Program-made: the position numbers and the translations under genes
Virus record (IMG/VR): IMGVR_UViG_3300009080_000026
Span: 1 to 41,785 of that record
Length of the DNA stretch: 41,785 bases
Source: a virus
Strand: one strand, 5' to 3'
Shown here: piece after piece, positions 5,559 through 41,772 of the stretch
Layout of the letters: each line of letters opens with the position of its first letter
How positions within the stretch are numbered: position 1 is the first letter of the stretch
The notes under the pieces: model-generated
Database searches by the model: none
The model's input: the letters and a program-made list of their open reading frames with translations, nothing else
What the model was told of the DNA's origin: nothing

Positions 5559-5783
5559 ATGAAAAATTATATTAAAAATTTTAAAGGATTTGTATCAGAA
5601 TCTATTGAAACTAATACTAAAGAAATTCAGTTATTAGATCAGAAAAAAGCTTTGCAAGAAAAACTAAAGCAAACTACAGATGACATTCAAAAAACTCAAA
5701 TTGAGTCAGACATTTCTAAATTAGACATAGAAATAGAGCAACTTAGACAAATAGAAGATCAGGAAGAAGCCAATGAAGCATAA
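5559..5783 (+). CDS. Small coiled-coil protein with capsid-targeting-like N-terminus (74 aa)
   Basis: Begins MKNYIKNFKGFVSESIETN, nearly identical in its first eight residues to the protein at 14989 (MKNYIKDF). A V-S-E at residues 12-14 is a near match to the protease site. The remainder is a strongly predicted coiled coil (LQEKLKQTTDDIQKTQIESD). Possible scaffold or core component. It overlaps the next gene by 11 bases. Confidence 0.6.
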   Translation: MKNYIKNFKGFVSESIETNTKEIQLLDQKKALQEKLKQTTDDIQKTQIESDISKLDIEIEQLRQIEDQEEANEA

Positions 5784-6225
5784 AAGCAAACATATAAGCG
5801 ACATAGAATCTTTTCTAAATGAAGAAAAAGATAATGTAGTGTATAATACTAACTATACTGGAATGGTAAACAGCGCAGTAGCTAATATGTACACTAGTAT
5901 AATGGCAATTGCTCAAGAATTAGCTAATGAAAAGTTAGCAAGAGATCCTTATAACAACATAGGAGATATTGAAGAAGTTGATATATCAAGAGCTCTTAAT
6001 TTAATATTTCATAGCGATTGGAAAAGAAATATAAAGGACAGATGTTTACAGGGGGTTCAATCTAACGCGGCTAGCAGAGCATCAAAAAGGGACGAGTTGT
6101 CTAATAAGAAAAATCATAGAGCTTTGGCTAAGCTTAAAAAAGAAGACGGTACTGTTGAGATAGATACCTCAGACATAAGATTTAGCGATAAAACCTCAGG
6201 AAACGGACCCGGTTCTAACCAATAG
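5773..6225 (+). CDS. Hypothetical protein, predicted internal head protein (150 aa)
   Basis: The N-terminus MKHKSKHISDIESFLNEEKD ends in L-N-E (residues 15-17), the expected prohead cleavage sequence. The central part is helical; a basic segment (SRASKRDELSNKKNHRALAK) and a polar Gly/Asn tail follow, which could suit DNA contact inside the head. No known family. Starts inside the 3' end of the preceding gene. Confidence 0.6.
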   Translation: MKHKSKHISDIESFLNEEKDNVVYNTNYTGMVNSAVANMYTSIMAIAQELANEKLARDPYNNIGDIEEVDISRALNLIFHSDWKRNIKDRCLQGVQSNAASRASKRDELSNKKNHRALAKLKKEDGTVEIDTSDIRFSDKTSGNGPGSNQ

Positions 6226-6249
6226 ATTTTTTAAAATAAATAATACCAG

Positions 6250-6984
6250 ATGACTGAAGAAGATTTAATAAAAGACATTAATGAAGAAATAACATTTTCA
6301 GGAATGTTACCATATTCTTTACCCGAGAAAGAGATTAAGAGGCAACTTGACATAGGTGCAAGGTATTTTTGGGATAATTGGAGACATGCCGTTGAGCCCA
6401 GATATTTAAGTCTTCCTAAAGAATTATTTGATTCTAAACAATTTAAGAAAATACGACAGATACAATTACCAGATTGTGTACAATTTGTTACACAATGTAA
6501 AGAACCTACTGGAGGTTCTATTTTCGGAACAATGGATAGAGACTTTTCAGAGTCAAAATTTATAGGTTCAGAAGTGTTTCTAACACCTTTTATTGGAGAG
6601 AGTATAATGTATAGAACAGTAATCTTTAGCTTCTTAGATTTAACCAGAGGACTTGTATTAGACACATTAGCGTATGATTATAACAAAAATACTAAATTAC
6701 TTACAATAGTGGGAAGAACTCCTAAGGTAGATGCAATTGTTCAGTTTTATAAAAAACTAGAAGTAGATAAGTTATATGAAGATGAAATCTTTCAAAGATG
6801 GGTAAGAGCTAAATGTAAAGTTAGACTAGCACATATGTTACAGACTTTTAAATATACTCTACCTGGTAATGTAGCTATTAGTTATGAATCTATAACATCT
6901 ACGGCTGAAGCTGAGATAAAGGCAGTGGAAGACATGATGAGTAAGGAGAATACTCCTGATTGGATTTATCTATATAGACAATAA
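6250..6984 (+). CDS. Probable neck / head-tail connector protein
   Basis: 244 residues. An N-terminal helical part with LPEKEIKRQLDIGARYFWDN and a following YLSLPKELF...IQLPDCVQFV pattern resembles neck or head-closure proteins of large Bacteroidota phages and T4 gp13-like proteins. The C-terminal helices (FQRWVRAKCKVRLAHMLQTF) would pack in a ring. The call rests on this general pattern and on position just before gp25, so treat it as a structural protein with tentative role. The start at 6250 follows an AAATAAATA box. Confidence 0.5.
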   Translation: MTEEDLIKDINEEITFSGMLPYSLPEKEIKRQLDIGARYFWDNWRHAVEPRYLSLPKELFDSKQFKKIRQIQLPDCVQFVTQCKEPTGGSIFGTMDRDFSESKFIGSEVFLTPFIGESIMYRTVIFSFLDLTRGLVLDTLAYDYNKNTKLLTIVGRTPKVDAIVQFYKKLEVDKLYEDEIFQRWVRAKCKVRLAHMLQTFKYTLPGNVAISYESITSTAEAEIKAVEDMMSKENTPDWIYLYRQ

Positions 6985-7592: not shown

Positions 7593-9323
7593 TTATAATT
7601 GGCCTTCGCCTTTGGTTTCTCCACCATCCACTACTTCACTTCCTCCTTCAGGAGCCGCAGCTCCGCTACCAGCGGCCGCAGCTCCACCACCACCTACATC
7701 TGGCATAGCACCTCCTGCACTTCCATCAGGCTTAGGGGGTTTGGAATTAGCTTCTTCCTGAGCTTCTTGCTCTTGTATGATGTAATTTTGGTTTGTTGAA
7801 ATTTCATCATCTGACATTTTAAGTTCCTTTCTTATTAAATATTCAGTAGAGAAATATGGAGTACCATCATCGTTCATTACACCTTTCATGGCAGTGAAAC
7901 TAGCTAATCTCTTATTAGCAACTTCTCGTTCTTTCATTTCTTCAAACAAATTATCATTATTAAATTTAACGCCTATTGCGTTTTTAAATTTATGATCTCC
8001 TTTTATCTGAGGTATATCTAATTCCATTTGTAACCAAAGAGGTTTAGTTATAAGTTCCTGTATAGTTGTTCTAATTCTATTTACGAATTTGTTATATCTT
8101 ATTTCTTCTCTAGTAATACCTTCGGCATTGAGAGTAAATGCTCCCATTCCAGATTGACCTTCCCAACGAGAATATGGAATTTTAGAATCCATCTTTAATT
8201 TCTTTAAGAAGTGATTTAATAATTCAGATCCAGATAGATTAGGTCCCGGATACTGTAATGGCTCAATCTTTACTTGTTCGTTTCTATCATTTACTGGTAA
8301 AACATAATTTTTATAAAATAAGATATTAGGTTGTCCGTTTACTTTTATTTCACCTGAATCATTGTCAAAGTTAATATCTTCCTTAAGAATATTTAAAAAC
8401 TCTCTTACGTCTTCTTGTGCTTTTTGAATAGATTTAGAACCAACGGGAACAGTAGTGGTTAGTCTTATTGGAGCATTCATAACGTGCCATATAACCTTGC
8501 TTTGTTCAATAATTCTTAGTAGATTAAACGAACGTATTAGTCTTTCTACAAAGCTAACTCTTTTTGTTCTAAAATGATTCGAATAAGACAAGTATATTAT
8601 TTGAGAATCTGTAAGCGTTCTAGTATGAGTACTATTTGGAGTATATTGGGTCCACTGTAAAAATAATTTACCTGCGTTATCTTTCGATAACTGGGGAACT
8701 ATACTAGTAGGATCAAGTTCTTTATAGCCTATTATTTCCCTAGGGTTTTGAGGATTGTCATATATTATTTCAAACGCTAAATGACCTTCTACTAAATATT
8801 GATATACATATTGCCAGGCAGATATACCTTCACCAAACCCCCATGAATTATATATTTTATGAAAGTTTTCATTGTATTTTCGTATGACATTATCTTGATA
8901 CTTTAATCGCTGTTCCTTTGAGTTTCCTTTGTACATCATTTTACCAATAGGATCAGACGGTTGGCAAAACATATTTTCATCATCATATACTATAACATCA
9001 TCGGTTATAGTTTCTAATACAAATTCTATTTCCCCATTGGATGCAATATCTCTAAGTCTTTCTCTTTTTATAGCATAGTCTAATTGAAAAAAGGCAACTG
9101 CTTTTGTTCTTAATTGAGAAGTAGTGTCAGATATAGCCATCGACATTCTCATCATCTCGTTCTGGCCATATTGTTCATTACTTCTAGCCATTAGTTGACT
9201 TTCTATGAATCCAATTGCCTGTGAATTCTTTAGTAAAAGATCTTCATGCCTAACATTGAATCTGCTTAATGCAGATAGTCTGCTGCTTAATCTATTTACT
9301 GTATTTTCTAAAAATCCTGCCAT
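7593..9323 (-). CDS. 20: Portal vertex protein (T4 gp20-like)
   Basis: 576 residues, close to T4 gp20 (524). It forms the dodecameric ring through which DNA is packaged and to which the neck binds. The gp20-type core includes YKELDPTSIVPQL, DSQIIYLSYSN, RLIRSFNLLRIIEQSKVIWH, APIRLTTTVPVG, KKLKMDSKIPYSRW, then NAEGITREEIRYNKFVNRIR and FNNDNLFEEMKEREV, the last two being highly characteristic. The C-terminus adds a Gly/Ala-rich disordered tail (about residues 528-576) encoded by locally GC-rich DNA near 7630-7745. Followed closely by a 69-residue ORF. Confidence 0.92.
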   Translation of the reverse strand: MAGFLENTVNRLSSRLSALSRFNVRHEDLLLKNSQAIGFIESQLMARSNEQYGQNEMMRMSMAISDTTSQLRTKAVAFFQLDYAIKRERLRDIASNGEIEFVLETITDDVIVYDDENMFCQPSDPIGKMMYKGNSKEQRLKYQDNVIRKYNENFHKIYNSWGFGEGISAWQYVYQYLVEGHLAFEIIYDNPQNPREIIGYKELDPTSIVPQLSKDNAGKLFLQWTQYTPNSTHTRTLTDSQIIYLSYSNHFRTKRVSFVERLIRSFNLLRIIEQSKVIWHVMNAPIRLTTTVPVGSKSIQKAQEDVREFLNILKEDINFDNDSGEIKVNGQPNILFYKNYVLPVNDRNEQVKIEPLQYPGPNLSGSELLNHFLKKLKMDSKIPYSRWEGQSGMGAFTLNAEGITREEIRYNKFVNRIRTTIQELITKPLWLQMELDIPQIKGDHKFKNAIGVKFNNDNLFEEMKEREVANKRLASFTAMKGVMNDDGTPYFSTEYLIRKELKMSDDEISTNQNYIIQEQEAQEEANSKPPKPDGSAGGAMPDVGGGGAAAAGSGAAAPEGGSEVVDGGETKGEGQL

Positions 9324-9349
9324 TGCTTATTATAGTTTTTATTTACGAT

Positions 9350-10027
9350 TTAAAAGAACTTAGATTCGAATCTTTCGAATATTCCTTCTATTCCACCTAT
9401 TCTCTGGTTAAATATTATTCCATCTGAGGCTACTCCCATGTTGTATATATCGGGTAAAGCATTCCAGTCAAGTAATCTAACCTTCTTTATACTATTTATC
9501 TCATAGTTTTTTATTGCAAAATTAACATTTGCATTAACAATCTTAGATATAAACGATTCGTTTACAGCAAAAAAGGGTTGCATATAAGATTGATCTCTTA
9601 TTCTTTTACCAATAGGAGTATCTATGGTTTTTAAATCTTCACTTACATATGGACTTATGAAATTATTTTTAACGTTCATAATAGCATAATATGAATCTAG
9701 TATAAGTCTTCGGTAAACAGGTGACATTAATTTTAAATTTAAAATAGATTGATAGTTTTCATTGTTTATATTTAATGCTATTCCAAATGGCATTGAATCA
9801 TAATATGGTTTTTTCGTAACAAAGAACTTATCGTCTTTATTGTCTACATAATCCTGCTTATCGTATGGAATAGTATCGGGAGATACTTGGGAACCTGTGT
9901 CTATACCGAGCGCGTATAAATGACCTGGTATTAAACTAGGAGGCATGGGTTTTCCATACTCCTCTATTATTTTAAATGGATTATTTACAGGTGCTTTAAT
10001 ACTAATATCTCTAAGTAATTTCTTCAT
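9350..10027 (-). CDS. Phage virion-assembly-region protein, unknown (225 aa)
   Basis: Starts MKKLLRDISIKAPVNNPFK. It holds a PPSLIPGHLYALGIDTG strand and, after an insertion, KKPYYDSMPFGIALNI. This P-G-x-L-Y ... P-Y-Y-D-x-x-P arrangement reminds me of an uncharacterised protein family of T4-like phages encoded near head-completion genes; I cannot name it securely. It is placed between gp4 and the portal, in one operon, so a head or tail assembly role is likely. Confidence 0.55.
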   Translation of the reverse strand: MKKLLRDISIKAPVNNPFKIIEEYGKPMPPSLIPGHLYALGIDTGSQVSPDTIPYDKQDYVDNKDDKFFVTKKPYYDSMPFGIALNINNENYQSILNLKLMSPVYRRLILDSYYAIMNVKNNFISPYVSEDLKTIDTPIGKRIRDQSYMQPFFAVNESFISKIVNANVNFAIKNYEINSIKKVRLLDWNALPDIYNMGVASDGIIFNQRIGGIEGIFERFESKFF

Positions 10028-10036
10028 AGTAATATC

Positions 10037-10549
10037 TTACAAATTCTTAAACAAAAAGTTTTCAGTTATTATTCCAAATTTTATACCTTTTGAATCTGCA
10101 TAATCTTTAGCTGCTTCAAATTTAGCTCTATTTATTAAATACGCCTTTGTATGACTAAGATAATGTTTCATTTGTTTTTCAGTCATTTTTTTTATAGGCT
10201 TAGGAGGTTGAGTGTATTTGAGAGGTTTTATTTCAAGTATCCACTTTTTTATATTTCCATTAGGGTCTCTTGTTACTATATAGGCGTCAACCCAATACTT
10301 ACATGTTTTTTTAGTAACAGGATTCCAATAAGCAATACCAACAGGCTCCGATGAATATTTTAATATTTTTTCATTGTCGTCGCAGAACTTCAAAAATTTA
10401 TATTCCCAACTAGATCTGTATATTATCTGAGAAAGATCTCCATCGTATTTGTCAGGATTCTTAGGAATAAAATAACCCTGTCTTATCTTCCCCCTTCTAG
10501 GTTTTAAAGTATCTTTTATACTTTTAGGTTTATTGTTTTTATTAGTCAT
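10037..10549 (-). CDS. 4: Head completion nuclease (T4 gp4/gp50-like)
   Basis: 170 residues. It carries the conserved gp4 sequence NPDKYDGDLSQIIYRSSWEY, then KYWVDAYIV and WILEIKPLKYTQPPKP, then KAYLINRAKFEAAKDYAD and KFGIITENFLF. Glu49, Asp88, Glu106 and Lys108 form a PD-(D/E)xK-like catalytic set. The T4 protein is needed to finish filled heads before tail joining. The first residues (KNNKPKSIKDTLKPRRGK) are basic and likely DNA-contacting. It overlaps the upstream acidic ORF by 8 bases. Confidence 0.9.
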   Translation of the reverse strand: MTNKNNKPKSIKDTLKPRRGKIRQGYFIPKNPDKYDGDLSQIIYRSSWEYKFLKFCDDNEKILKYSSEPVGIAYWNPVTKKTCKYWVDAYIVTRDPNGNIKKWILEIKPLKYTQPPKPIKKMTEKQMKHYLSHTKAYLINRAKFEAAKDYADSKGIKFGIITENFLFKNL

Positions 10550-10973
10550 CTACGCTATCGCCTATGAATTTATCGGCTTTCTTAGGATCTAATTTTCCTT
10601 GTTCTACTAATTTTACAATAAGTGCAGACATTGCTAAATTTTCAGGAACTCCCTCTTTTTCCATCATTTCTATTTCATCAGACTCATATGCATCCTTTAA
10701 GTCGTTATACGCTTCTTCTGCAGCTTTTTCAACATCTTCTTCTGAACCTACTGCTTCTATCAACTCGTCTAAGATTTCTTCAGCTAGATTTAATTCGGAT
10801 GCTATATCGTCCATATTGTTTGAATCTGGACCTTCTCCCATATTGTTCTCTATTGCTTTTCCTCTCGTTACTTCATAGCTAGATAGTTTATTATCATCAT
10901 TTAAATCAGCTTTTTTAGGATTTTTTAATCCGTGATTTTTGAATTCTGTTAAAGTTTTTACTAATTTTTTCAT
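10542..10973 (-). CDS. Acidic protein with EF-hand/dockerin-like loop and capsid-targeting-like start
   Basis: 143 residues, strongly acidic. The N-terminus MKKLVKTLTEFKNHG contains L-T-E at residues 8-10, matching the prohead protease site. Residues 23-35 (ADLNDDNKLSSYE) fit a Ca-binding D-x-N/D-x-D-x-K-x-x-x-x-E loop as in dockerin/EF-hand proteins. The rest is helical (EEILDELIEAV, EKAAEEAYNDLKDAYESDE). It may be a prohead core or internal protein. A TAAATAAATAAATAA stretch lies upstream of the ATG. Confidence 0.6.
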   Translation of the reverse strand: MKKLVKTLTEFKNHGLKNPKKADLNDDNKLSSYEVTRGKAIENNMGEGPDSNNMDDIASELNLAEEILDELIEAVGSEEDVEKAAEEAYNDLKDAYESDEIEMMEKEGVPENLAMSALIVKLVEQGKLDPKKADKFIGDSVDD

Positions 10974-10999
10974 TTAAAAAGTTATTTTTATTTATTTAT

Positions 11000-12142
11000 T
11001 TACAAATATAGTATGTCAAACAGTGAATTTGTAAAATATGAGTCTAGTGTTTTATTAAACTCTTTTATACTAAAAAATGAAGAGTTTAATTTAATTAAAA
11101 ACATGTAAAGCATATTCACATCAGTTATTTTTTTAATATCTATTAAATGTTTTGGGAAGTCATTCTTTAAATCTTTTATCAACTTAGACCACATGAAGAC
11201 TTCATATCCTTCTTGTAAAAGTTTAATAGATTGTGTTTTTCCAGCTTTGTCATTGTCGAATAATATCCTAACTTTAGCGTCCTCTGAGAGCATTGCTATA
11301 GTCTCCTTTATTTTACCTACACCGGTTGATGCTATACCATTATGTAAAAACATTGAATCAAATTGACCTTCGCATATTGTTATTTTTTTCTTAAAATCTA
11401 TATTCAATATATTAAATATGTTATTGAGAGAATCTATTTCATTTAGCTCTTCTTCGGTCATTCCTAATTTAGAAACTTCTCTATTTATTTCTGAATAGTT
11501 CATCATTTTATATTTAGGGCCCCAATAATTATCGTCTATGGACCTGACGGAATATCCTAATATTTTGTTTGAAACATTATCTTTATTAAAAATAAATATC
11601 TTTTCAGATTTAGAATCTTCATAGCAACATTCTGAAAAGGAATCGCACTTATCTAATTCTCTGCTTATTATGTATTTTGAACATTTTGAATTAGCTGAGT
11701 TAGTATCTATTTTATTTAATGAAAACCTATCTGCAAAGTATTCTAAATCAACCAACTTATGTTTTAAATCTTGATTTATTAAGAAAGTAAGAAGAGATAA
11801 TTTTTTCCTTGATTTAACATTTGTTTTAAGACCGCCTTTAATAAAGAGGTCAGGTGGCATTAAACTATATTCATGACAATATCTAGATATAAATTTATCG
11901 AGATCCATAAATATCATGCATCCATCGTTATAACATTTATAAGTATTGCTTTCCAAATAGATATTACCTCTACGTTTAGATTTCTTTTTTTCAGAATCTC
12001 CACATACTGGACATGCTAAGTTTATTTTTTTAGGATTAGCTTCGTCTATTTTATGCTTAATGGGATCATCAGGAAATCTATTTAGCATAACTTCTTTTAA
12101 GAACTCCGGAAGAGTAGTATTAGTATCTAAATCTATATTCAT
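11000..12142 (-). CDS. 61: DNA primase (T4 gp61-like)
   Basis: Synthesises RNA primers for lagging-strand DNA. The N-terminal zinc-binding domain has Cys44 and Cys47 (ACPVCG) and Cys70 and Cys75 (YKCYNDGC). The TOPRIM domain follows: ITICEGQFDSMFLHNG with the catalytic Glu, and RILFDNDKAG with the DxD metal site. Length 380 is somewhat longer than T4 gp61. It is directly downstream of the polymerase remnant (3-base gap), so a replication operon. Confidence 0.88.
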   Translation of the reverse strand: MNIDLDTNTTLPEFLKEVMLNRFPDDPIKHKIDEANPKKINLACPVCGDSEKKKSKRRGNIYLESNTYKCYNDGCMIFMDLDKFISRYCHEYSLMPPDLFIKGGLKTNVKSRKKLSLLTFLINQDLKHKLVDLEYFADRFSLNKIDTNSANSKCSKYIISRELDKCDSFSECCYEDSKSEKIFIFNKDNVSNKILGYSVRSIDDNYWGPKYKMMNYSEINREVSKLGMTEEELNEIDSLNNIFNILNIDFKKKITICEGQFDSMFLHNGIASTGVGKIKETIAMLSEDAKVRILFDNDKAGKTQSIKLLQEGYEVFMWSKLIKDLKNDFPKHLIDIKKITDVNMLYMFLIKLNSSFFSIKEFNKTLDSYFTNSLFDILYL

Positions 12143-32347: not shown

Positions 32348-33052
32348 TTAATCTCCATAATATTCAGAATATCTAAAGTTTTTACATATCATAGTTGAAA
32401 CAACTGTTTTATTTTCAGGTATATTATGTTCTTTCTTAATACTATTATTTATAACTACATTCATTGTTTTGTCATTTAATTGAGACAATATATTTTCATC
32501 TAATATTTCTCTAACTAGTTTATTATCGAAATATATAAATATTCCATGAGGGAACCATTCTACACTATATGTATGAAAATCTTTGCTTGGACATTTCCAG
32601 CCCAGCCAATGTTCTTTTGCTCCAATCATGTAATTATCAGGAGATTTTCCTAGATGAACATTCGTTTGCACTTTCCAGAAATCTCCTAGTAAAGCATTTA
32701 TATTCCAATTAAAATAGCTTCCTTTATGATTTGAATATGCTTCGAAAACATCTATCTCAGGGGGCCATGACTCAAAGGCCCACATCCAAAAAGCTGGCCA
32801 TAAACTAGGTCCCTTTGGAAGTTTAATATCTATGTCAAATCTACCATGTTTAAATTTAGTTGTACAGTTTATCAAACCTACTCCGAATGGTGAAATTACT
32901 CCATCTATTTTTTTAGGGTTATAGTGTGTCTTTAAGTATAATTCATCATCTATTATTTTAACTGCGCTTTTATCATACCAACATTCTGTTTTTTCAGGGT
33001 GCATTAATCCCCATCTTTCACCCACTTGCCAATCATAGCCTTGCCATTTCAT
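32348..33052 (-). CDS. Glycoside hydrolase family 16-like protein
   Basis: 234 residues. The catalytic signature E-x-D-x-x-E is present as PPEIDVFEAYS (Glu99 nucleophile, Asp101, Glu104 acid/base), preceded by FKHGRFDIDIKLPKGPSLWP and AFWMWAF, the family-typical beta strands, and followed by FHTYSVEWFPHGIFIYFDNK. GH16 enzymes cut beta-1,3/1,4 glucans, laminarin, agar and carrageenan. No signal peptide is seen. It could be a virion depolymerase or act inside the cell on a glycan made by neighbours. Confidence 0.85.
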   Translation of the reverse strand: MKWQGYDWQVGERWGLMHPEKTECWYDKSAVKIIDDELYLKTHYNPKKIDGVISPFGVGLINCTTKFKHGRFDIDIKLPKGPSLWPAFWMWAFESWPPEIDVFEAYSNHKGSYFNWNINALLGDFWKVQTNVHLGKSPDNYMIGAKEHWLGWKCPSKDFHTYSVEWFPHGIFIYFDNKLVREILDENILSQLNDKTMNVVINNSIKKEHNIPENKTVVSTMICKNFRYSEYYGD

Positions 33053-33143
33053 AAATTATATTTTTTATATAGTACTGATGTATATTCAATAGGTTTTGTG
33101 CACACGCTGATTATGTAAAAAATAAGAAGGAATAAATAATAAT
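33053..33143. promoter_or_regulatory. Divergent promoter gap
   Basis: 91 bases between the GH16 gene (minus) and the methyltransferase (plus). AT-rich, with AATAAATAATAAT just before the plus-strand ATG, one of several AAATAAATA-type boxes in the window, and TATATAAAAAATATAA toward the minus gene. No firm promoter assignment is possible. Confidence 0.3.
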
Positions 33144-33716
33144 ATGAAAAACTTAAATATATTAAAAGACTTAGAAGATTATATTAAAAATATGAGAAGC
33201 GAGGATAAGAGACATATTGAACATATGATTTCTTCAAATAATGCACTTTCCTATAAAGATTTTACATATGGGACTACTCCATATGAAACAGCTATAACGC
33301 TAATAGATTCAGTTAGTAAAAAGTACGATAGATTCGTAGTTGTTGGCGCAAGCATAGGGTGGATGAATTTTTACTTTAATGACAAATATCCAGATATAGA
33401 AACTTTAGGAATAGATATACATAGAGGTAGAATAAGATTTGGAAAATCTCTAATAAAAAAATATAATTTATCTAATATATCATTAGATGTAGATGATTTA
33501 TATAAATTTGAATTTAAATCAACTGACTTAATATGGATGAGTAATTGCTGTTTTGATAAAAATAGTTTTGAAGATATTTTTAATAAGATCATAGGTGAAC
33601 ACCCTGAAATATCTATAATATCATATAAACCCTTCAGTGGAGCTAAATATAAGCGTTACAAGTTACCTGTTAGTTGGATGGAAAATCAACCGTTCTGGGT
33701 GTATGATGAGAAATGA
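33144..33716 (+). CDS. SAM-dependent methyltransferase-fold protein (DOT1-like layout)
   Basis: 190 residues. After YGTTPYETAITLIDSV comes motif I VVVGASIGWMNFYF and motif II LGIDIHRGRIRFG with an acidic D-x-H, then DLIWMSNCCF. The TPYETA followed by GxS/G motif resembles DOT1-type lysine methyltransferases, but this is weak. It overlaps the SET-like gene by 4 bases, and the two with the ATP-grasp gene form a tightly overlapping operon. Confidence 0.6.
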   Translation: MKNLNILKDLEDYIKNMRSEDKRHIEHMISSNNALSYKDFTYGTTPYETAITLIDSVSKKYDRFVVVGASIGWMNFYFNDKYPDIETLGIDIHRGRIRFGKSLIKKYNLSNISLDVDDLYKFEFKSTDLIWMSNCCFDKNSFEDIFNKIIGEHPEISIISYKPFSGAKYKRYKLPVSWMENQPFWVYDEK

Positions 33717-34345
33717 ATATTAAAAAAGGAAATATCATACCGGAGGGTTTAGAACTAAAAGAATCACCTTTGCATGGACTTGGGGTTTTTGCAACAAAAT
33801 TTATTCCAAAGGGTAGTAATCTAGGCATCTGTCATTACTATGACTATAACGAAAGACCAGTTAAACATTTAAGAAACCCCTTAGTTGGTTTTTTTAATTA
33901 CTCGGTCAATAAAAACGCATGGTTACCTATAGTAAAAAAAGAATTTACAAATGGAATAGGTTCGGTTACTGAATTAATAACAACTAAAGATATAGAAAAA
34001 GGTGAAGAAATTTTATTAAGGTATAGTTGGTATGACCCTACAAAACCAGATACTAAAAAAAATAAACATTACGTTCCTTTACCGGATTGTGTTTCTATAG
34101 AGGAAAGAGATGGGGCCTATACTCTTTATGCAACTAAAGATATTGTAAAAGATTTTGATTTTGGGTATTCTCATAGCTATTATAGTAAATCTGATTTATA
34201 CGAACCTAATCCAGTAGGAGGATATTTAATAGAATCTGCTACGCCTAATTGTAATATCTTTAAAAAAGATAAAGAGTTACGTTTAAAATCAAAAAGAAAA
34301 ATAAAAAAGGGAGAATCGATAAGTGTAAGTTATGAAATATTATAA
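33713..34345 (+). CDS. Tandem SET-like domain protein
   Basis: 210 residues containing two SET-type units of about 100 residues. Unit 1 (about 10-112): SPLHGLGVFATKFIPKGSNL, GFFNYSVNKNAWLP and ITTKDIEKGEEILLRYSW. Unit 2 (about 122-210): GAYTLYATKDIVKD, PVGGYLIESATPNCNIFKK and KRKIKKGESISVSYEI. In typical SET lysine methyltransferases the key motif is NHSxxPNC; unit 1 has NYS but lost PNC, unit 2 has PNC but IES for NHS. So the two might complement one another, or one may be inactive. Confidence 0.75.
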   Translation: MNIKKGNIIPEGLELKESPLHGLGVFATKFIPKGSNLGICHYYDYNERPVKHLRNPLVGFFNYSVNKNAWLPIVKKEFTNGIGSVTELITTKDIEKGEEILLRYSWYDPTKPDTKKNKHYVPLPDCVSIEERDGAYTLYATKDIVKDFDFGYSHSYYSKSDLYEPNPVGGYLIESATPNCNIFKKDKELRLKSKRKIKKGESISVSYEIL

Positions 34346-35090
34346 TTATTTACCGTCTAGCTTAACTCAATGGTCGCCTGAATTTGACTGTTCGTACATT
34401 CACACTAGGTATAAAACTCATATTGAAGATAATTATATGTTAACGCTAAGGCGTAAAAACAAAATAGAATGTATAAATATGAAAAAACTTTATAATAAGT
34501 ATGAAGTTAAAAAATTTTTTGAAAAACATGGTTTAAACGTACCTACATTATATTGTTATTCTACTAAAGATTCTGATATTTCACATGCATTAAGGGAACG
34601 GTATGTTGCTAAACCTGCTCATATGTCAGAAAACGATGGAGTTTTTATTAATGATAAAGACTTTAAAAAAGTAGATAGAAAACTTAGGGAATGTTTAAAG
34701 TCTTCATCAAGAGCAACTGAACCTGAGATGATGAAACAAACTGAAAAAGGAATAATAGTAGAAGAATATATCGAATACGATTATGAATTTAAAGTATTTG
34801 TTCTATATGGATGTCCAATAGTTGGTGATTTAAGAAAAGGATCAAAAGAATGGCATAGAGTAGATATGATAGACAAAAGCAATACTTATTTTAATTGGGA
34901 TAAAGAATATGACATTTGTAAAGCCATAGCAAAAGAATTAAAGATAGATTTCTTTAGAATAGATTTCTTTTACAATAAAAAAGAGGACAAACTTTACGCA
35001 GGTGAAATGGCTTTTAGACCTTCTACACTACTTGGTAAAGAAATAGAAAAATATGTACTTTCTAAGTGGAAAGAAATGGCTAAATATTAA
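34332..35090 (+). CDS. ATP-grasp ligase (TupA/ATPgrasp-like)
   Basis: 252 residues. NKYEVKKFFEKHGLNVPTLY and RERYVAKPAHMSENDGV (ATP-binding Lys), IVEEYIEYDYEFKVFVLYG, then FFRIDFFYNKKEDKLYAGEM with the acidic metal ligands and the final Glu/Arg (FRPSTLLG). This matches the ATP-grasp fold, closest in style to TupA-like teichuronopeptide or sugar-associated ligases that form amide bonds. Overlaps the SET-like gene by 14 bases. Confidence 0.78.
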   Translation: MKYYNYLPSSLTQWSPEFDCSYIHTRYKTHIEDNYMLTLRRKNKIECINMKKLYNKYEVKKFFEKHGLNVPTLYCYSTKDSDISHALRERYVAKPAHMSENDGVFINDKDFKKVDRKLRECLKSSSRATEPEMMKQTEKGIIVEEYIEYDYEFKVFVLYGCPIVGDLRKGSKEWHRVDMIDKSNTYFNWDKEYDICKAIAKELKIDFFRIDFFYNKKEDKLYAGEMAFRPSTLLGKEIEKYVLSKWKEMAKY

Positions 35091-35145: not shown

Positions 35146-35997
35146 CTATTTCCTAAGAGATTTCATTTTAGCCAGTTCTGAACCAATTACTGATCTTGGA
35201 CCGTATCCTCCCATTGCTCTTTCAATATCGCGTATTCCTTTAACCAACTTCATTAGTCCGCTAGGTTCAACTGAGGACTCTTGATCGCTTCCCCAATTAG
35301 TTCTGTCTAAAGTAATATGTCTTTCAACCCACGTTGCTCCAAGAGTCACTGCAGCCATTGTGGTTGTTAAACCATATTCATGTCCAGAATAACCGATATC
35401 AGTATTATGTCCATATTTGTCTTTTAGCCACGTTATGTATTCTAACCTGAGTTCACCTACATTGGATGGGTAACTGGAATTAGTGTGCATTACAATATCA
35501 GGTTGGATTGCGTCCATGCATCTAACCACTTCTTCTTCAGTACTCATTCCGGTACTTACTATCATATGATCAAATTTATGATCTGCATATAAACATAAAT
35601 CGATATCAGTGATTAAAGCAGACGGTATCTTAGCTATCTGTGGACACATGCGCATCATAAAATCAACAGAAGGCTTATCCCATACTGATGCGAATAACCC
35701 AATCGGTTTATCTTCGCAATATGCATATAATTCTTGCCACTGTTCCTCATTGAACTCGATGTCATGTTTGTATTGAATATAGGTGGTTTCTTCAGTTCTC
35801 CATGGAACTCTCTTAGGTTTAGTTTTTTGTTCTTCTGGAACACAGTGATCTGGTGATCTCTTTTGGAATTTAACCCAGTCACAACCTGCAACAACGGCTA
35901 CGTCGATTAGTCTTTTTGCATTGTCTAAGAATTTAGACCGGTCGTTACCATATGCAAAATTGATTCCTATTTCTGCTATTATTTTTGTGTGTTGCAT
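35146..35997 (-). CDS. neuB: NeuB-type N-acetylneuraminate (sialic acid) synthase
   Basis: Condenses phosphoenolpyruvate with an N-acylmannosamine-type sugar. 283 residues carry the NeuB TIM barrel: IIAEIGINFAYGNDRSKFLD, DWVKFQKRSPDHCV, IGLFASVWD, AKIPSALITD, MIVSTGMSTEEEV, MHTNSSYPSN, DIGYSGHEYGLTTTMAAVTL and WVERHITLDRTNWGSDQESS. The usual C-terminal antifreeze-like (SAF) domain is absent. GC content in a sampled line is about 42%, far above neighbours near 22-30%, suggesting more recent transfer. NeuA (CMP-sialate synthetase) is not in the window. Confidence 0.92.
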   Translation of the reverse strand: MQHTKIIAEIGINFAYGNDRSKFLDNAKRLIDVAVVAGCDWVKFQKRSPDHCVPEEQKTKPKRVPWRTEETTYIQYKHDIEFNEEQWQELYAYCEDKPIGLFASVWDKPSVDFMMRMCPQIAKIPSALITDIDLCLYADHKFDHMIVSTGMSTEEEVVRCMDAIQPDIVMHTNSSYPSNVGELRLEYITWLKDKYGHNTDIGYSGHEYGLTTTMAAVTLGATWVERHITLDRTNWGSDQESSVEPSGLMKLVKGIRDIERAMGGYGPRSVIGSELAKMKSLRK

Positions 35998-36006
35998 GCG
36001 TTTATG

Positions 36007-36837
36007 TTATTGCCAAGTTGCATATGGAATTTTAAATATGTTATCTACAGTTTTAAGAGATACATTAGGGGTTTTTGGAAATATAATTTTATTAAATCCA
36101 AAAGTCTTGGTATCTTCATTCACTAGTTTTATACTGTTTACCAATTCACTAGTTCTAGCTCTATTGAACACGGCTCTTGTAGTAGATGTGTATTTTTTAT
36201 TGAGATCCTTTCTAATAGTTTCCATGTGGTGCATAGTTATATTTGATATAGGTAGCCTCACATCACCGCCTTTAGCAATTGCGTTTATTCCCCTAGTAGG
36301 GTCGCATCTAGTAAAGAACGATTTGCTCATCCTAGAGGAAGCATTGACTTTGCATATAAAAGGAACTGACGAACTATCATATCCTCTATGATATATTGGG
36401 AGATTAACATAATTTATAAATGAACATGAACTTCTTGTGATATTACGTTCTATGATGATATCTTTGGCATTTTTAAACTCATCGGCTTTATAAAATTCAT
36501 CAACGTCCATTGATATAAAATGAGTACAACCCTGCTTAACACATGCGTCTAATCCAAATTGTCTTTTACGCATTTCAAAAGCCTTAGATGTTTGTATATT
36601 AGATGCACATGCTCTATTTAGATTTTTGAAATCAGAGAATTTATCTAATGAGTTGATTAGTTTTTTTCTATGGAGCCTACTTAGTATGTCTTTATCACTC
36701 TGTGACATCTGTGATCCAAACCATGAAATATCCTGATATGCTACGTGTATAAAATCAACGTGTTCTCTTATTTGCTTTATAGAATATTCCAATAGTTCTA
36801 TTCCATCAAATACAGTATATGATACTCCTAATTTCAT
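36007..36837 (-). CDS. Glycosyltransferase (GT-A, family 2-like)
   Basis: 276 residues. It starts MKLGVSYTVFDGIELLEYSI; the metal/nucleotide-sugar site is HFISMDVDEFYKADEF (DxD). Upstream, MRKRQFGLDACVKQGCTHF and downstream SINYV-type strands fit a GT-A fold. The acceptor is unknown. It ends 9 bases before the neuB start and begins at the last base of the dehydrogenase gene, so both neighbours are in the same operon. Confidence 0.72.
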   Translation of the reverse strand: MKLGVSYTVFDGIELLEYSIKQIREHVDFIHVAYQDISWFGSQMSQSDKDILSRLHRKKLINSLDKFSDFKNLNRACASNIQTSKAFEMRKRQFGLDACVKQGCTHFISMDVDEFYKADEFKNAKDIIIERNITRSSCSFINYVNLPIYHRGYDSSSVPFICKVNASSRMSKSFFTRCDPTRGINAIAKGGDVRLPISNITMHHMETIRKDLNKKYTSTTRAVFNRARTSELVNSIKLVNEDTKTFGFNKIIFPKTPNVSLKTVDNIFKIPYATWQ

Positions 36838-37748
36838 TACTTATTATTTCTTATTTTGTAAGCTAATTCAACACTTGGAATAGCGTCTCTTAATTTAAAT
36901 CCTTCTCCTATTAGTATTTTTTCATACGATTTAGTGTGCAGATCAGTAAATCCTGTGCTGAATTCAAATGAACTATCATCTATGCAAATTGAACGGTATA
37001 CTGGCAACCCCTTTTGTTTATATTCTAAGGGTAAATCATCAGAATCAATGCTCAATTTCCATGTCACGTTAGCCCGATCTAGTTCTAGATATCCGCTAGC
37101 ACTCGTTTCAGAATGATTAGAAGTAGAATTTTTAACATTTCCAAATATCCAAATGAGCATGTCAAAGAAATGAATTCCTATATTAGTAGCAATTCCTCCC
37201 GATTTTGACATTTTATTTTTCCAGGATCTCAAATACCAATTACCTCGACTTGTAATATAATCTAAAGTAACTTCATACGTTTTATCAGAAGGCCCATTAT
37301 CTATCTTTTCTTTTAATTCAATAACCGATGGATGCAAACGTAGCTGTAGAATATTGTTAATTTGCTTACCAGTTTCAATTTCTAATTTCATTAGTTCATC
37401 TATATTCCAAGGGTTCAATACTAGAGGTTTTTCACAAATAACATCTGCGTCATTTCTTAGCGCAAGTCTAATATGAGCATCGTGTAGATAATTAGGAGAA
37501 CATATTGATATGTAATCTATTTTACGATCAGTATCTTTTAACTTATACATATGACGATCAAACATTTCAGATTCTAAGAAAAGTTCTGCTTTTGGAAAAT
37601 ACGTATCAATTATTCCAACGCTATCATTTTTATCTAATATTGCAACTAGATTGTTTCCAGTTTCTTCTATAGCTTTCATGTGGCGAGGAGCAATATATCC
37701 AGATGCTCCAATTATTGCAAAATTTTTCGTTTGTTTGTTATTTTTCAT
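36837..37748 (-). CDS. wlbA: UDP-N-acetylglucosaminuronate 3-dehydrogenase, WlbA/WbpB-like
   Basis: Gfo/Idh/MocA oxidoreductase, 303 residues. FAIIGASGYIAPRHMKAIEE (Rossmann), YISICSPNYLHDAHI, DVICEKPLVLN (catalytic Lys), YEVTLDYITSRGNWYLRSWK, GIATNIGIHFFDMLIWIFGN (His) and EFSTGFTDLHTKSYEKIL match the WbpB/WlbA subfamily closely. These oxidise C3 of UDP-GlcNAcA for diamino-uronic acid sugars. The partner aminotransferase was not found in the window and may lie beyond it. Confidence 0.88.
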   Translation of the reverse strand: MKNNKQTKNFAIIGASGYIAPRHMKAIEETGNNLVAILDKNDSVGIIDTYFPKAELFLESEMFDRHMYKLKDTDRKIDYISICSPNYLHDAHIRLALRNDADVICEKPLVLNPWNIDELMKLEIETGKQINNILQLRLHPSVIELKEKIDNGPSDKTYEVTLDYITSRGNWYLRSWKNKMSKSGGIATNIGIHFFDMLIWIFGNVKNSTSNHSETSASGYLELDRANVTWKLSIDSDDLPLEYKQKGLPVYRSICIDDSSFEFSTGFTDLHTKSYEKILIGEGFKLRDAIPSVELAYKIRNNK

Positions 37749-38443
37749 GGTGTGAAATCTTTATAGAAGTTATTTTTACTTTTCATTTCCTGATGTTCTC
37801 GTGTGAAACTTGCTACATAATTTTTTCTAAAGGTTCCACCTATTGGAATCCTCTTAGTTAGATTATCATCGTGTAAATAAGCAGTAAGTAAAATTTCATT
37901 TAATGATTCAATACAACTCGGTTTAGCCAATTGAATTCTTCTTTTGTATTCTGTGTCACAACCTGCCCTGAAACTATCAAAATAACCTATTGCGTCGAAT
38001 ATTTCACGTTTCATAACTAGCATCGATTCATTGGTTTTTGTATTAGTAGACATAGTTCTTTTAGTTCTATAATCTACTCTCTTAAACCCACATCCTGTTG
38101 CCATTGTAGATTCATTTGAGTTATTTAGCATATTCAATTGCTTATTAAATCTATCACTATGCGATATATCATCAGCTCCATGTATTGCATAATGAGTCCA
38201 TTCTTTATTATTCTCCATATGTTTAAGTGCTACATTCAAAGAATAGTAAGGTCCTTTATTACTATGATTTTGCAACACTGTTGCTTCGTCAAATGATTTT
38301 GCAATACGATATGTATTATCAGTAGAAGCATCATCTACAATTACCAATTTTAGATCGACGCTTTGATCTAAAATCGATTGTATCGTATTCTTTATAAATT
38401 GACCCGCATTATGTGCTGGAATTATAACTAGTAATTTATCCAT
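37745..38443 (-). CDS. Family 2 glycosyltransferase
   Basis: 232 residues. MDKLLVIIPAHNAGQFIKNT, KLVIVDDASTDNTYRIAKSF, NKGPYYSLNVALKHMEN and YAIHGADDISHSDRFNKQL are the GT2 nucleotide and metal sites. The short C-terminus holds MVMKREIFDAIGYFDSFRAG and CDTEYKRR (catalytic acidic region). It overlaps the dehydrogenase start by 4 bases (ATGA). Acceptor unknown. Confidence 0.88.
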   Translation of the reverse strand: MDKLLVIIPAHNAGQFIKNTIQSILDQSVDLKLVIVDDASTDNTYRIAKSFDEATVLQNHSNKGPYYSLNVALKHMENNKEWTHYAIHGADDISHSDRFNKQLNMLNNSNESTMATGCGFKRVDYRTKRTMSTNTKTNESMLVMKREIFDAIGYFDSFRAGCDTEYKRRIQLAKPSCIESLNEILLTAYLHDDNLTKRIPIGGTFRKNYVASFTREHQEMKSKNNFYKDFTP

Positions 38444-38445
38444 AA

Positions 38446-38973
38446 TTACTTTAGATTTTTAACTCTTGCTGGATTTCCATAAACAACACTATTGTCTTCT
38501 ACATTTTTAGTTACAACTGCTCCCATTCCAATAATTGCGTTTTCTCCAACTGTAATTCTATTTCTAATCAAACATCCTATTTTAAGTTTTGCACCATCCT
38601 TAATAGTAACGTATCCGCCCAGAACAGTGGATGTGCATATTTCAGTATTATTTCCAACATTCACATCGTGCCCAAAGTGAGAATGAGCCATAATTATATT
38701 ATTGTCTCCAAGTTCAGTAGTTTGACCTTCATCAAATGGACATTGTATCGTTACGTGCTCAGAAATAACGTTATTATCTCCAATGATAACCTTTCCTTTA
38801 AATCCCCTAGGATCCTTTCCACGAATTTCACCATTACTTCCAATAACTGTAAATGGTCCAATTGTATTATTTTTTCCTAACGTAACGTTGTCTCCCACTA
38901 TCGCATTGATGTGTATTCTATTGTTACGCTCTAATGTTATCCATTCCATGTTGTATATTTCATCAGGTGTCAT
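38446..38973 (-). CDS. LpxA-like hexapeptide-repeat acyltransferase
   Basis: 175 residues. Left-handed beta-helix repeats of the [LIV]-G-x4 type fill the chain (AIVGDNVTLGKNNTIGPFTV, IIGDNNVISEHVTI, IIMAHSHFGHDVNVGNN, AIIGMGAVVTKNVEDN, VVYGNPARVKNL). The His-containing IMAHSHFGHDV resembles LpxA; N-acetyltransferases such as WlbB are built similarly. It likely acylates a nucleotide sugar in the glycan pathway. Confidence 0.82.
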   Translation of the reverse strand: MTPDEIYNMEWITLERNNRIHINAIVGDNVTLGKNNTIGPFTVIGSNGEIRGKDPRGFKGKVIIGDNNVISEHVTIQCPFDEGQTTELGDNNIIMAHSHFGHDVNVGNNTEICTSTVLGGYVTIKDGAKLKIGCLIRNRITVGENAIIGMGAVVTKNVEDNSVVYGNPARVKNLK

Positions 38974-38988
38974 ATTAATTTATTATTT

Positions 38989-39603
38989 TTAATCATTCTT
39001 TCTAAACAAGTAGAAATCGGATATTGACGTTTCGCCGGCGTTATCTACATCTTTGTTATATGGGTATAAGTTATCAACCTTTTTAATTAATGACCAATCC
39101 GGTGCATTTAATTCAACCCATTTAGTAAATTTTCTATATCTCATATGATTTCCAGTATAATCGGAATCATAATCACTTGAATATATCAATACCAATTTAT
39201 CAGATGCTGCGAATAGATTTCGCATATACTTATCAAATACATCATCTTCAACTAGATGAAATATAACATCAATTGACATACTTATATCTGCGTCTGTTCC
39301 ATGTAATGCAATAAGATTATCAGTGTATTCGTAAAAATCCTTTGACAAATCATTTTTATATAATTCAGAGCATACATCAACAGCTGTAGTAGAAACATCA
39401 AATCCAACATATGAATTAGTGTTCATATCACGAAGTTGATTTCCATCACCACATCCAAATTCAACAATCTTGTTAATTGAGAATTCATCAATGTATGAAT
39501 TTATTATTTTGTTTTTAAACTCTGCGAGTCTACCGTATGAACCCGATCCAGAGTTACCACCGTTACTATATCTGCTTTCCCAGAAATTCTTTGAATTTAT
39601 CAT
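38989..39603 (-). CDS. SAM-dependent methyltransferase
   Basis: 204 residues. Motif I IVEFGCGDGNQLRDM, motif II YVGFDVSTTAVDVC, DISMSIDVIFHLVEDD (motif IV, post-I) and LVLIYSSDYDSDY match class I methyltransferases of the polysaccharide type. It probably methylates a sugar or protein in the same pathway. It begins 4 bases inside the upstream glycosyltransferase gene. Confidence 0.8.
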   Translation of the reverse strand: MINSKNFWESRYSNGGNSGSGSYGRLAEFKNKIINSYIDEFSINKIVEFGCGDGNQLRDMNTNSYVGFDVSTTAVDVCSELYKNDLSKDFYEYTDNLIALHGTDADISMSIDVIFHLVEDDVFDKYMRNLFAASDKLVLIYSSDYDSDYTGNHMRYRKFTKWVELNAPDWSLIKKVDNLYPYNKDVDNAGETSISDFYLFRKND

Positions 39604-40214
39604 ATGTATCTATTTTTTATTTTATCTTTTTCAACTTGACGTTTTGCCTGATATTCAGGACTTGATATTCCTAATGATTTTTGACTAGAATGTCGCCTGT
39701 ACTTATATGTGAATGAATTTAAATATCCCATCTTATAGTTGTTTGATAATAGCCACATATTGAAGTCATATTCCTCACCAGTCCACAGCGTTAGATCCAT
39801 TGCTCGTTTTTCAAAGCACCGTTTTCGATATACAACAGTTCCACCGTGAATTGCATACCGGTTTAGCATACTATCTAATGTTAGAACAATATCGGACGGA
39901 ACCCACATGTCCTCTGTTCCATCTTCAAAAAAGTTGATTGCGTTTGAGTGAATGAAATCAACCTCAGAATTATTTTTAAAATACTCAACCGTATCTGCTA
40001 TACTATTTGTAGTAAGTAGATCATCTTCGCATAAATATCTAACTAATTCACCAGTTGCTTTTTCCAATCCTCTATTAAAATTTTCAGAAGCCAGGCAATC
40101 TCCATGTTCTATTAGAATTTCAATATCATCGTAAGTTTGATTTTCTAAGCTTTCTATAGCTTCTTCTAAATATCCCCTGCTTACGTTGTAAGGAATAATT
40201 ACTGTTACTTTCAT
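39600..40214 (-). CDS. Family 2 glycosyltransferase
   Basis: 204 residues. MKVTVIIPYNVSRGYLEEAI, LENQTYDDIEILIEHGD, NFNRGLEKATGELVRYLCED and FIHSNAINFFEDG give the GT2 pattern, with the DxD-like CEDD; GGTVVYRKRCFEKRA and WTGEEYDFNMWLLS are C-terminal catalytic motifs. Overlaps the methyltransferase gene by 4 bases and follows the large glycosyltransferase by 1 base. Confidence 0.86.
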   Translation of the reverse strand: MKVTVIIPYNVSRGYLEEAIESLENQTYDDIEILIEHGDCLASENFNRGLEKATGELVRYLCEDDLLTTNSIADTVEYFKNNSEVDFIHSNAINFFEDGTEDMWVPSDIVLTLDSMLNRYAIHGGTVVYRKRCFEKRAMDLTLWTGEEYDFNMWLLSNNYKMGYLNSFTYKYRRHSSQKSLGISSPEYQAKRQVEKDKIKNRYI

Positions 40215-40215
40215 A

Positions 40216-41772
40216 TTATTTTGTATTTAATTTCCATTTTACAGATTGTAGTATTCTGATCTGATCATTCCACATCTCGTGGCGTTTCTCAAATAGAGTA
40301 TCTTTATTTCCAATATCAATTGCTTGAATGTGATCAGCTTTATGCTGTCGGCATAATATTGGAATATTATTTAGTTGAGCATATTGACCCAACCATAAAT
40401 CACACATGCCGTGTTTTTTAATTAAGTCCTTTGGTAATTTAATCTTATTGTTATCAAATACCATAACTCCAGTTCCACCTAAATGTACCCAAACATCAGT
40501 TGGATTATCCTTTATACAATGATATGCCGGTTTTAAAGTATCATGGAAATTTTTTGGAGTAACTGGAACTCTTTTTCCATGTATAGTTACTAATATTTCT
40601 CCATTGTATTTATTTAGTGAGTTGATATGCTCAGTAAAGAAATCAGCAGGATAAAATAAATCATCGTCAACTGTGAAATAATATTCGTTCTTGTTAGTGT
40701 ATGCCCAATGAAATTTACCAGAATCTTTTATATTTGGTACGCCAATTAAATATTCTATCCTAGGATCTGTCGGAAAATCGGCAGGAATTTCCTTAAATTC
40801 ATTAAGGTATATTCTAAATTTATCAATGAAATCATGTTCTAACATTTTCTTCATACACGGCTTAAATGAATATTGACGCGCAGGATATGTTGCCATATTT
40901 ACAGTTATTTGTTTTTTATTAGTTTCTACCATTGTAAGTTTATTAAATTCGGGCTTTATATGAAGTTCAGGACGTCTAGCTTTCTCATTTTCATGTATTA
41001 TTTTTATGTACGATTGCCTAAGCTCAGACATACTAGTTATTGTATTAGTAAGTTGTCCATCATGTTCACCACGATCATATAAAATCGGGATTCGTATAAC
41101 TCTTCCAATTTTCTTACGTAATCTAAATATCATATCAGTATCAGCAGCGCATCTCCATGATCTGTACCCTCCGACCGTATTGAATCTATCTTTTCTTATG
41201 AATAATACACCATCATGTTTTGAAATCTTAGCATCATTATTACATGACATCGTTGAGATTAAATTAGAATGCATCACATCATCTGCTCCAAATGTTATAA
41301 AATATTCATCGTTTGGAATCTTTTGAATTAGTGAATTAATCACAAGATATGGACCAGTATTCACGTCAGCATAATATACTTCCAGATTATGATATTTATG
41401 AGATATTGATTTTACCTTCTCTAGTGTTTTCTCACATGCATCGATTCCTAGTAATATACGATGAGCGGGTTTATCTTGACTCATTATAGAATCTAAACAC
41501 TCTTCTATAAAAGCGCTAGCATTATATGCGGGAATTATTATACTTATATTAAAATCAGATTCATTTACGTTATTGTTTATAACTGGTTTATGTGAGTTTA
41601 CTACCTTACTTTTTCTCTCCTTTACGCGCTCTACATATGCATTCGTATTTACTATCCCACTAAGAGTTTTATATGAATTCCAATCTTCCTGTTTATTATA
41701 ACTATTCCAAATAGAATTTATTCGTTTGAACATAAAACGAGCGTCGTTGTTTTTTAATAATTCAATATCCAT
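40216..41772 (-). CDS. Two-domain glycosyltransferase
   Basis: 518 residues. Domain 1 (about 70-250) is GT2: ISIIIPAYNASAFIEECLDS, TGPYLVINSLIQK, YFITFGADDVMHSN and TVGGYRSWRCAADTDMIFRL. Domain 2 (about 290-500) starts TVNMATYPARQYSFK and has EYYFTVDDDLFYPADFF, a second GT-A metal site, with HGMCDLWLGQYAQ. A polymerase-style enzyme adding two sugars is possible, as in KfoC-like synthases. First gene in the visible operon. The ATG is 13 bases from the window edge. Confidence 0.8.
   Translation of the reverse strand: MDIELLKNNDARFMFKRINSIWNSYNKQEDWNSYKTLSGIVNTNAYVERVKERKSKVVNSHKPVINNNVNESDFNISIIIPAYNASAFIEECLDSIMSQDKPAHRILLGIDACEKTLEKVKSISHKYHNLEVYYADVNTGPYLVINSLIQKIPNDEYFITFGADDVMHSNLISTMSCNNDAKISKHDGVLFIRKDRFNTVGGYRSWRCAADTDMIFRLRKKIGRVIRIPILYDRGEHDGQLTNTITSMSELRQSYIKIIHENEKARRPELHIKPEFNKLTMVETNKKQITVNMATYPARQYSFKPCMKKMLEHDFIDKFRIYLNEFKEIPADFPTDPRIEYLIGVPNIKDSGKFHWAYTNKNEYYFTVDDDLFYPADFFTEHINSLNKYNGEILVTIHGKRVPVTPKNFHDTLKPAYHCIKDNPTDVWVHLGGTGVMVFDNNKIKLPKDLIKKHGMCDLWLGQYAQLNNIPILCRQHKADHIQAIDIGNKDTLFEKRHEMWNDQIRILQSVKWKLNTK

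Follow-up and report, generated by a model that had tools for sequence, protein, structure and literature searches.

A recurrent phage cassette of methyltransferase, tandem SET and ATP-grasp genes as a candidate protein-modification system

Altogether, our analysis favours a model whereby three overlapping genes of a marine phage form the local version of a shared phage protein-modification cassette that would combine protein lysine methylation with ATP-driven amide ligation; we put the probability of this reading at about 0.5. The sequence analysed is the virus record IMGVR_UViG_3300009080_000026, and the whole stretch of 41,785 bases is called the window below. In our model, a class-I methyltransferase (MT) and a tandem SET protein (SET) would place methyl groups on lysine side chains, and an ATP-grasp ligase (AG) would use ATP to join an amino acid, or another amine or acid, through an amide bond, probably to the same protein that is methylated, which would most likely be a virion or host-surface protein. 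Action of the methyltransferases on protein lysines, a target common to all enzymes, and the identities of the ligated group and of the target are what we infer here. The genes and their immediate surroundings are:

33144..33716, plus strand: MT, class-I methyltransferase, 190 aa (open reading frame and family match)
33713..34345, plus strand: SET, tandem SET protein, 210 aa (open reading frame and PF00856)
34332..35090, plus strand: AG, ATP-grasp carboxylate-amine ligase (ATPgrasp_ST/TupA-like), 252 aa (open reading frame and family match)
33053..33143, no strand: divergent intergenic region between GH16 (minus) and MT (plus), 91 bp, presumed start of the transcription unit
32348..33052, minus strand: GH16 family glycoside hydrolase, catalytic EIDVFE motif intact

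The three open reading frames between 33144 and 35090 were confirmed, as were the overlaps described in the initial annotation, of 4 bases between MT and SET (33713-33716) and of 14 bases between SET and AG (34332-34345). The families named there also stand, SET with certainty, and MT and AG, each under the cut-offs when taken alone, once firmed by their relatives; all fold assignments derive from sequence profiles. The unit does lie on the opposite strand between two minus-strand blocks, with GH16, a HAD gene and one unknown gene to the left and NeuB and more sugar genes to the right; positions 35146-41772 hold nonulosonic-acid-type sugar genes (NeuB, Gfo/Idh/MocA, GT2, a hexapeptide transferase and another methyltransferase). 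GC content is 28-29% in the three-gene unit versus 30-37% in the adjoining 1-kb windows, and searches for promoters and terminators around the unit, the 91-bp intergenic region included, gave no clear signal over the shuffled background. A portal of T4/Lak type and replication genes are also encoded in the window, and a baseplate protein lies immediately left of the left-hand sugar block, from which we infer that the window is part of a contractile-tail phage.

Support for the idea that these genes belong together comes from their recurrence. Relatives were collected by IMG/VR searches and one GTDB search with short patterns taken from proteins of the cassette itself, an approach that retrieves close relatives, and the counts given are of contigs, not independent events. 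MT-SET-AG or close variants were found in four phage contexts (A-D), and a fifth (E) contains AG alone:

Group A: the window, L018 and L024 (near identical); also L019, where an extra gene of 322 aa separates MT from SET
Group B: L022, L023, L026 and L043, in the order MT, 322-aa gene, SET, AG; GH16 follows in L022, L023 and L043, and in L026 a different ATP-grasp-like gene follows SET and runs off the end of the contig
Group C: L020 and L021, with DOT1-like gene, MT and AG, no SET, and a tail sheath gene adjoining; L035 and L036, with a DnaJ-like/DOT1-like fusion, MT and another ATP-grasp gene (YheC/D type)
Group D: L039, L040 and L041, with DOT1-like gene, MT, SET and AG; MT, SET and AG are 35-50% identical to those of the window
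Group E: L064 and L065, with AG only

In an all-against-all protein comparison, the loci of different groups had nearly nothing in common beyond the cassette proteins, the exceptions being GH16 (A/B), a DOT1-like protein (B/C), a small ORF (B/D), a weak small-protein match (D/E) and short endolysin-type matches (A/D); whole-record searches were consistent with this pattern. The small ORF shared by groups B and D, of 77-112 aa, lies near the cassette at 9575-9808 in L022 and at 2235-2573 in L039. The terminase of L039 resembles those of crAss-like and Flavobacterium phages, the tail sheath on cassette contigs is T4-type, and L043 is a contig in a Prochlorococcus single-cell assembly. Because the same gene group occurs in unrelated phage contigs, its adjacency reflects more than chance. 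The three genes are a real, recurrent phage cassette that is probably shared horizontally, and since SET is missing in group C and a different ATP-grasp gene is present in L026, L035 and L036, its parts are exchangeable.

The proposal in the initial annotation that the genes act together is well supported by the co-occurrence of MT, tandem SET and ATP-grasp genes across otherwise unrelated phages. Frequent separate occurrence beside unrelated neighbours had been named as the observation that would speak against it. For each of the 13 MT relatives, one of the next three genes downstream is an ATP-grasp gene (AG itself in 10 of them, a different one in L026, L035 and L036), and every tandem SET relative found lies inside a cassette; separate occurrence applies in part to AG, which stands alone in L064 and L065, and to single-domain SET genes. 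Divergence of AG and SET is correlated (r = 0.93, 21 pairs) and that of MT more weakly so (0.69-0.72), a correlation expected in part from shared descent alone. In cultured phage genomes, no matches turned up for MT, AG, the 322-aa protein, the L035 MT or the L039 AG, and the SET search there found single-domain relatives only. Of 300 genomes searched in the family to which the Prochlorococcus single-cell genome belongs, that genome alone had AG.

MT consists of a class-I (7-beta-strand) core of 190 aa with the AdoMet motif VVGASIGW and GIDIH, and by itself it matched class-I methyltransferase models only under the curated cut-off (Methyltransf_25, E=1.2e-4). With an MT profile (A6, 11 sequences), the best solved relatives were Rickettsia PKMT2 (2.6e-10) and PKMT1 (3.1e-6), which places the core as homologous to that of PKMT1/2, in an alignment limited to the AdoMet core. 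Because the middle and C-terminal domains of PKMT are absent, with MT stopping directly after the core, we regard MT as a PKMT-like core and not as a PKMT member. Its N-terminal FTYGTTP is like a DOT1-type YGE motif that has lost its E, and YGxTP is found in most phage MTs of the set; the window MT falls outside the DOT1 family (PF08123), scoring 16.1 bits against a cut-off of 23 and having YGT, not YGE. Six further genomes from the cyanobacterial phylum encode remoter MT relatives, and the LTYGE of the five read would, by our own reading, correspond to the DOT1 YGE motif.

The second protein matched PF00856 in two stretches at 1.7e-13 (51.4 bits against a cut-off of 22.4), and all eight SET members match this family at E<=0.01. 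Aligned to each other, the two repeats score 65, compared with 29.6 +/- 6.0 (maximum 55) in 500 shuffles. Repeat 1 is intact and carries the AdoMet GxG, the N.(S/T)..N motif and the catalytic Tyr, with G22, G24, N62, N68 and Y104 invariant in eight rows; repeat 2 is degenerate, having lost GxG while retaining N179 and Y207, which is why we read it as a putative pseudo-partner, comparable to one subunit of a dimer, of a probably catalytic repeat 1. An invariant linker reads WYDPTKPD..N.HY.PLP (first residues W/Y.PTKPD). The best solved match of the SET profile is the algal-virus vSET (1.2e-4), and other lysine methyltransferases also match. Single-domain SET relatives, annotated as hypothetical, lie in cultured cyanophages and a Pelagibacter phage (GU071103.1 164245-164544; HQ634193.1 132178-132477; MT375529.1 23177-23485), with nrdB, a gp25-like gene or an AAA protein nearby.

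The window AG matched ATP-grasp models under the Pfam cut-off (ATPgrasp_ST, 2.3e-4). The ATP-grasp catalytic motifs are present, K94, E144/E145, D211, E225 and R229 being invariant in nine rows, and we would ascribe catalytic roles to these residues; the conserved stretches are VAKP, EEYI, DFFRIDF and E.AFRPST. The best families are the sugar-transfer-associated ATP-grasp (seven of nine members) and TupA-like (PF14305; two of nine, at E<=0.01, the window AG not being listed); the AG of L041, a 50% identical relative, exceeds the TupA-like cut-off (26.7 versus 25 bits). Matches to R2K_2 (0.026) and to the NCBIfam grasp-with-spasm peptide maturase (5.3e-5, far under its cut-off) are weak. In L064 (about 6000-6726) and L065 (about 5650-6396), which have AG but neither MT nor SET, an open and AG-like frame extends far 5' of the first standard start codon.

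Cassettes of relatives often include a DOT1-like lysine methyltransferase or the unclassified 322-aa gene, neither of which is part of the window cassette. The DOT1-like gene adjoins MT in groups C and D; against solved chains it matched DOT1-type enzymes at 3.4e-21 and protein-lysine methyltransferases at 2e-13 to 5e-12, and it matched an NCBIfam archaeal protein-lysine methyltransferase at 5e-13, under the cut-off of that model. In L035 (5625-6788) and L036 (6831-7994) it is fused to a weakly matching DnaJ-like domain, and in L020 the two are separate neighbours. A further DOT1-like gene lies far from the cassette at bases 1864-2217 of IMGVR_UViG_3300009024_000013, which is nearly identical to the window phage. 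The 322-aa gene (L003 5043-6011; L011 4421-5392; L029 8004-8876, there without the rest of the cassette) had no confident match in Pfam, NCBIfam or PDB, and its LGGAW stretch, by eye, hints at a flavin-type Rossmann protein. The AG position is taken by a different ATP-grasp-like gene in L035 (7363-8307, YheC/D type) and, weakly and at the contig end, in L026 (9590-10300). Relatives of the window GH16, 48-52% identical, lie beside the cassette in L022, L023 and L043, and because GH16 thus travels with the cassette in group B, it is a possible associated part. L019 encodes NeuB and a GT29 sialyltransferase-like gene at 9308-11439 and another gene that by eye is cytidylyltransferase-like.

Three lysine-methyltransferase types thus converge on the cassette, namely the PKMT-like MT, the tandem SET protein and the DOT1-like protein of groups C and D. 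SET, DOT1-like and PKMT-like enzymes are known as protein-lysine methyltransferases, and their convergence is our chief reason for proposing that a protein is methylated on lysine; because of these profile resemblances, lysine methylation and amide ligation would be the most likely chemistry. That the enzymes share a target is suggested indirectly by the constant gene order, the overlaps and the correlated AG/SET divergence. Against this reading, the sole part of MT that matches PKMT is the AdoMet-binding core, which is not what determines substrate choice; SET matches are at the domain level, and the window AG is under the Pfam cut-offs; moreover, no substrate protein common to all groups was found in these loci. 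A bolder and rather doubtful extension is that one protein bears a combined mark, for which two or three lysine methyltransferase types (SET, DOT1-like, PKMT-like) add methyl groups and the ATP-grasp enzyme ligates a further group, and that such a mark would be widespread, undescribed and moved as a unit between unrelated phages, analogous to methylation and ligation marks on eukaryotic histones and tubulin.

The initial annotation had left a choice between modification of a peptide or protein and assembly of a peptide-linked glycan. A TupA-like AG might couple lysine or some other amine to an acidic sugar (uronic or nonulosonic acid) through an amide bond, with the methyltransferases acting on the group so attached; a glycan of the virion or the host surface would thereby be changed. 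AG is indeed nearest to ATPgrasp_ST and TupA, and the TupA-like domain of Campylobacter Cj1438, which amidates glucuronate, is a precedent (PMC11800379). In the window, NeuB, MocA, GT2 and hexapeptide-transferase genes come after the unit, L019 has NeuB with the GT29-like gene, and GH16 accompanies the cassette in groups A and B. However, the neighbours in groups C and D are tail-sheath, endolysin-like or terminase genes, with no glycan genes recognised among the neighbours scanned, and NeuB is confined to group A in these loci. Because glycan-synthesis flanks are clear only in the window's lineage, one of four contexts, with GH16 also in group B, we place glycan decoration second and consider it somewhat unlikely, all the more so as the methyltransferase families are known for acting on protein lysines. 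The protein side of that choice thus gains support from the affinity of the cassette methyltransferases to protein-lysine methyltransferases, and the family affinities of AG leave room for the glycan side.

Small-molecule and peptide clusters commonly contain ATP-grasp, methyltransferase and oxidoreductase genes, and the cassette might make a small molecule or a graspetide-like ribosomal peptide. AG would then be the ligase, the methyltransferases would tailor the product, and the 322-aa gene of relatives would encode an oxidoreductase. The weak AG match to the grasp-with-spasm maturase and an extra L035 ORF that by eye reads as GNAT would fit; the 322-aa gene, however, has no confident family, and no conserved small ORF that could be a precursor gene was found in or adjoining the cassettes outside known genes, the conserved short ORFs being other frames of cassette genes or flanking genes. 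A graspetide-type cluster, with a precursor gene beside the ligase, was rejected, and we hold this broader alternative to be improbable. Phage accessory regions do mix genes, and AG, single SET genes and the 322-aa gene each occur separately, so that the three genes might be unrelated cargo in a hypervariable region. This is highly improbable given the 13 of 13 MT relatives beside an ATP-grasp gene, the unrelated contexts, the overlapping or close genes and the constant order, and chance adjacency was rejected on the recurrence in unrelated contigs. A defence or anti-defence system was also considered and rejected, PADLOC returning weak methyltransferase matches only.

Phage protein modification is known mostly as ADP-ribosylation and acetylation. 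If protein lysine methylation with amide ligation is the correct reading, the presence of the cassette on contigs with crAss-like terminases and on contigs with contractile-tail genes would suggest strong selection for modifying a virion or host protein, a modification apparently not measured so far in the open-licence literature. In agreement with the initial annotation, which knew of no described system, that literature yielded no published combination of MT, SET and AG. The present analysis supplies concrete genes, relatives and a prediction for mass spectrometry.

Several characterised systems share single parts with the cassette. AG, like the R2K ATP-grasp peptide ligases of jumbo phages, which are proposed to modify host proteins (PMC7824862), is a phage ATP-grasp enzyme, but it matches R2K_2 weakly, and the passages of that survey covered here describe no linked methyltransferases; a term search of the survey gave no mention of SET domains. 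The TupA-like and sugar-transfer-associated ATP-grasp enzymes (PF14305, PF14397; for example the Cj1438 C-terminal domain) share the AG signature and are its best Pfam families, whereas AG stands alone in phages beside lysine methyltransferases, with no fused glycosyltransferase. Outer-membrane protein lysine methyltransferases form a class with Rickettsia PKMT1/PKMT2, which methylate the surface protein OmpB (PMC11784438), and Acinetobacter KmtA; MT resembles the Rickettsia enzymes in its AdoMet core but lacks the other domains of their 535-554-aa chains. The companion gene of groups C and D is strongly similar to DOT1 and archaeal aKMT4, and MT has a YG motif at the DOT1 position, although the window cassette contains no DOT1-like gene and its MT lacks the E of YGE. 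Finally, SET shares the minimal SET domain of PBCV-1 vSET, but it has two repeats per chain, the second degenerate, and belongs to a bacterial, not an algal, virus.
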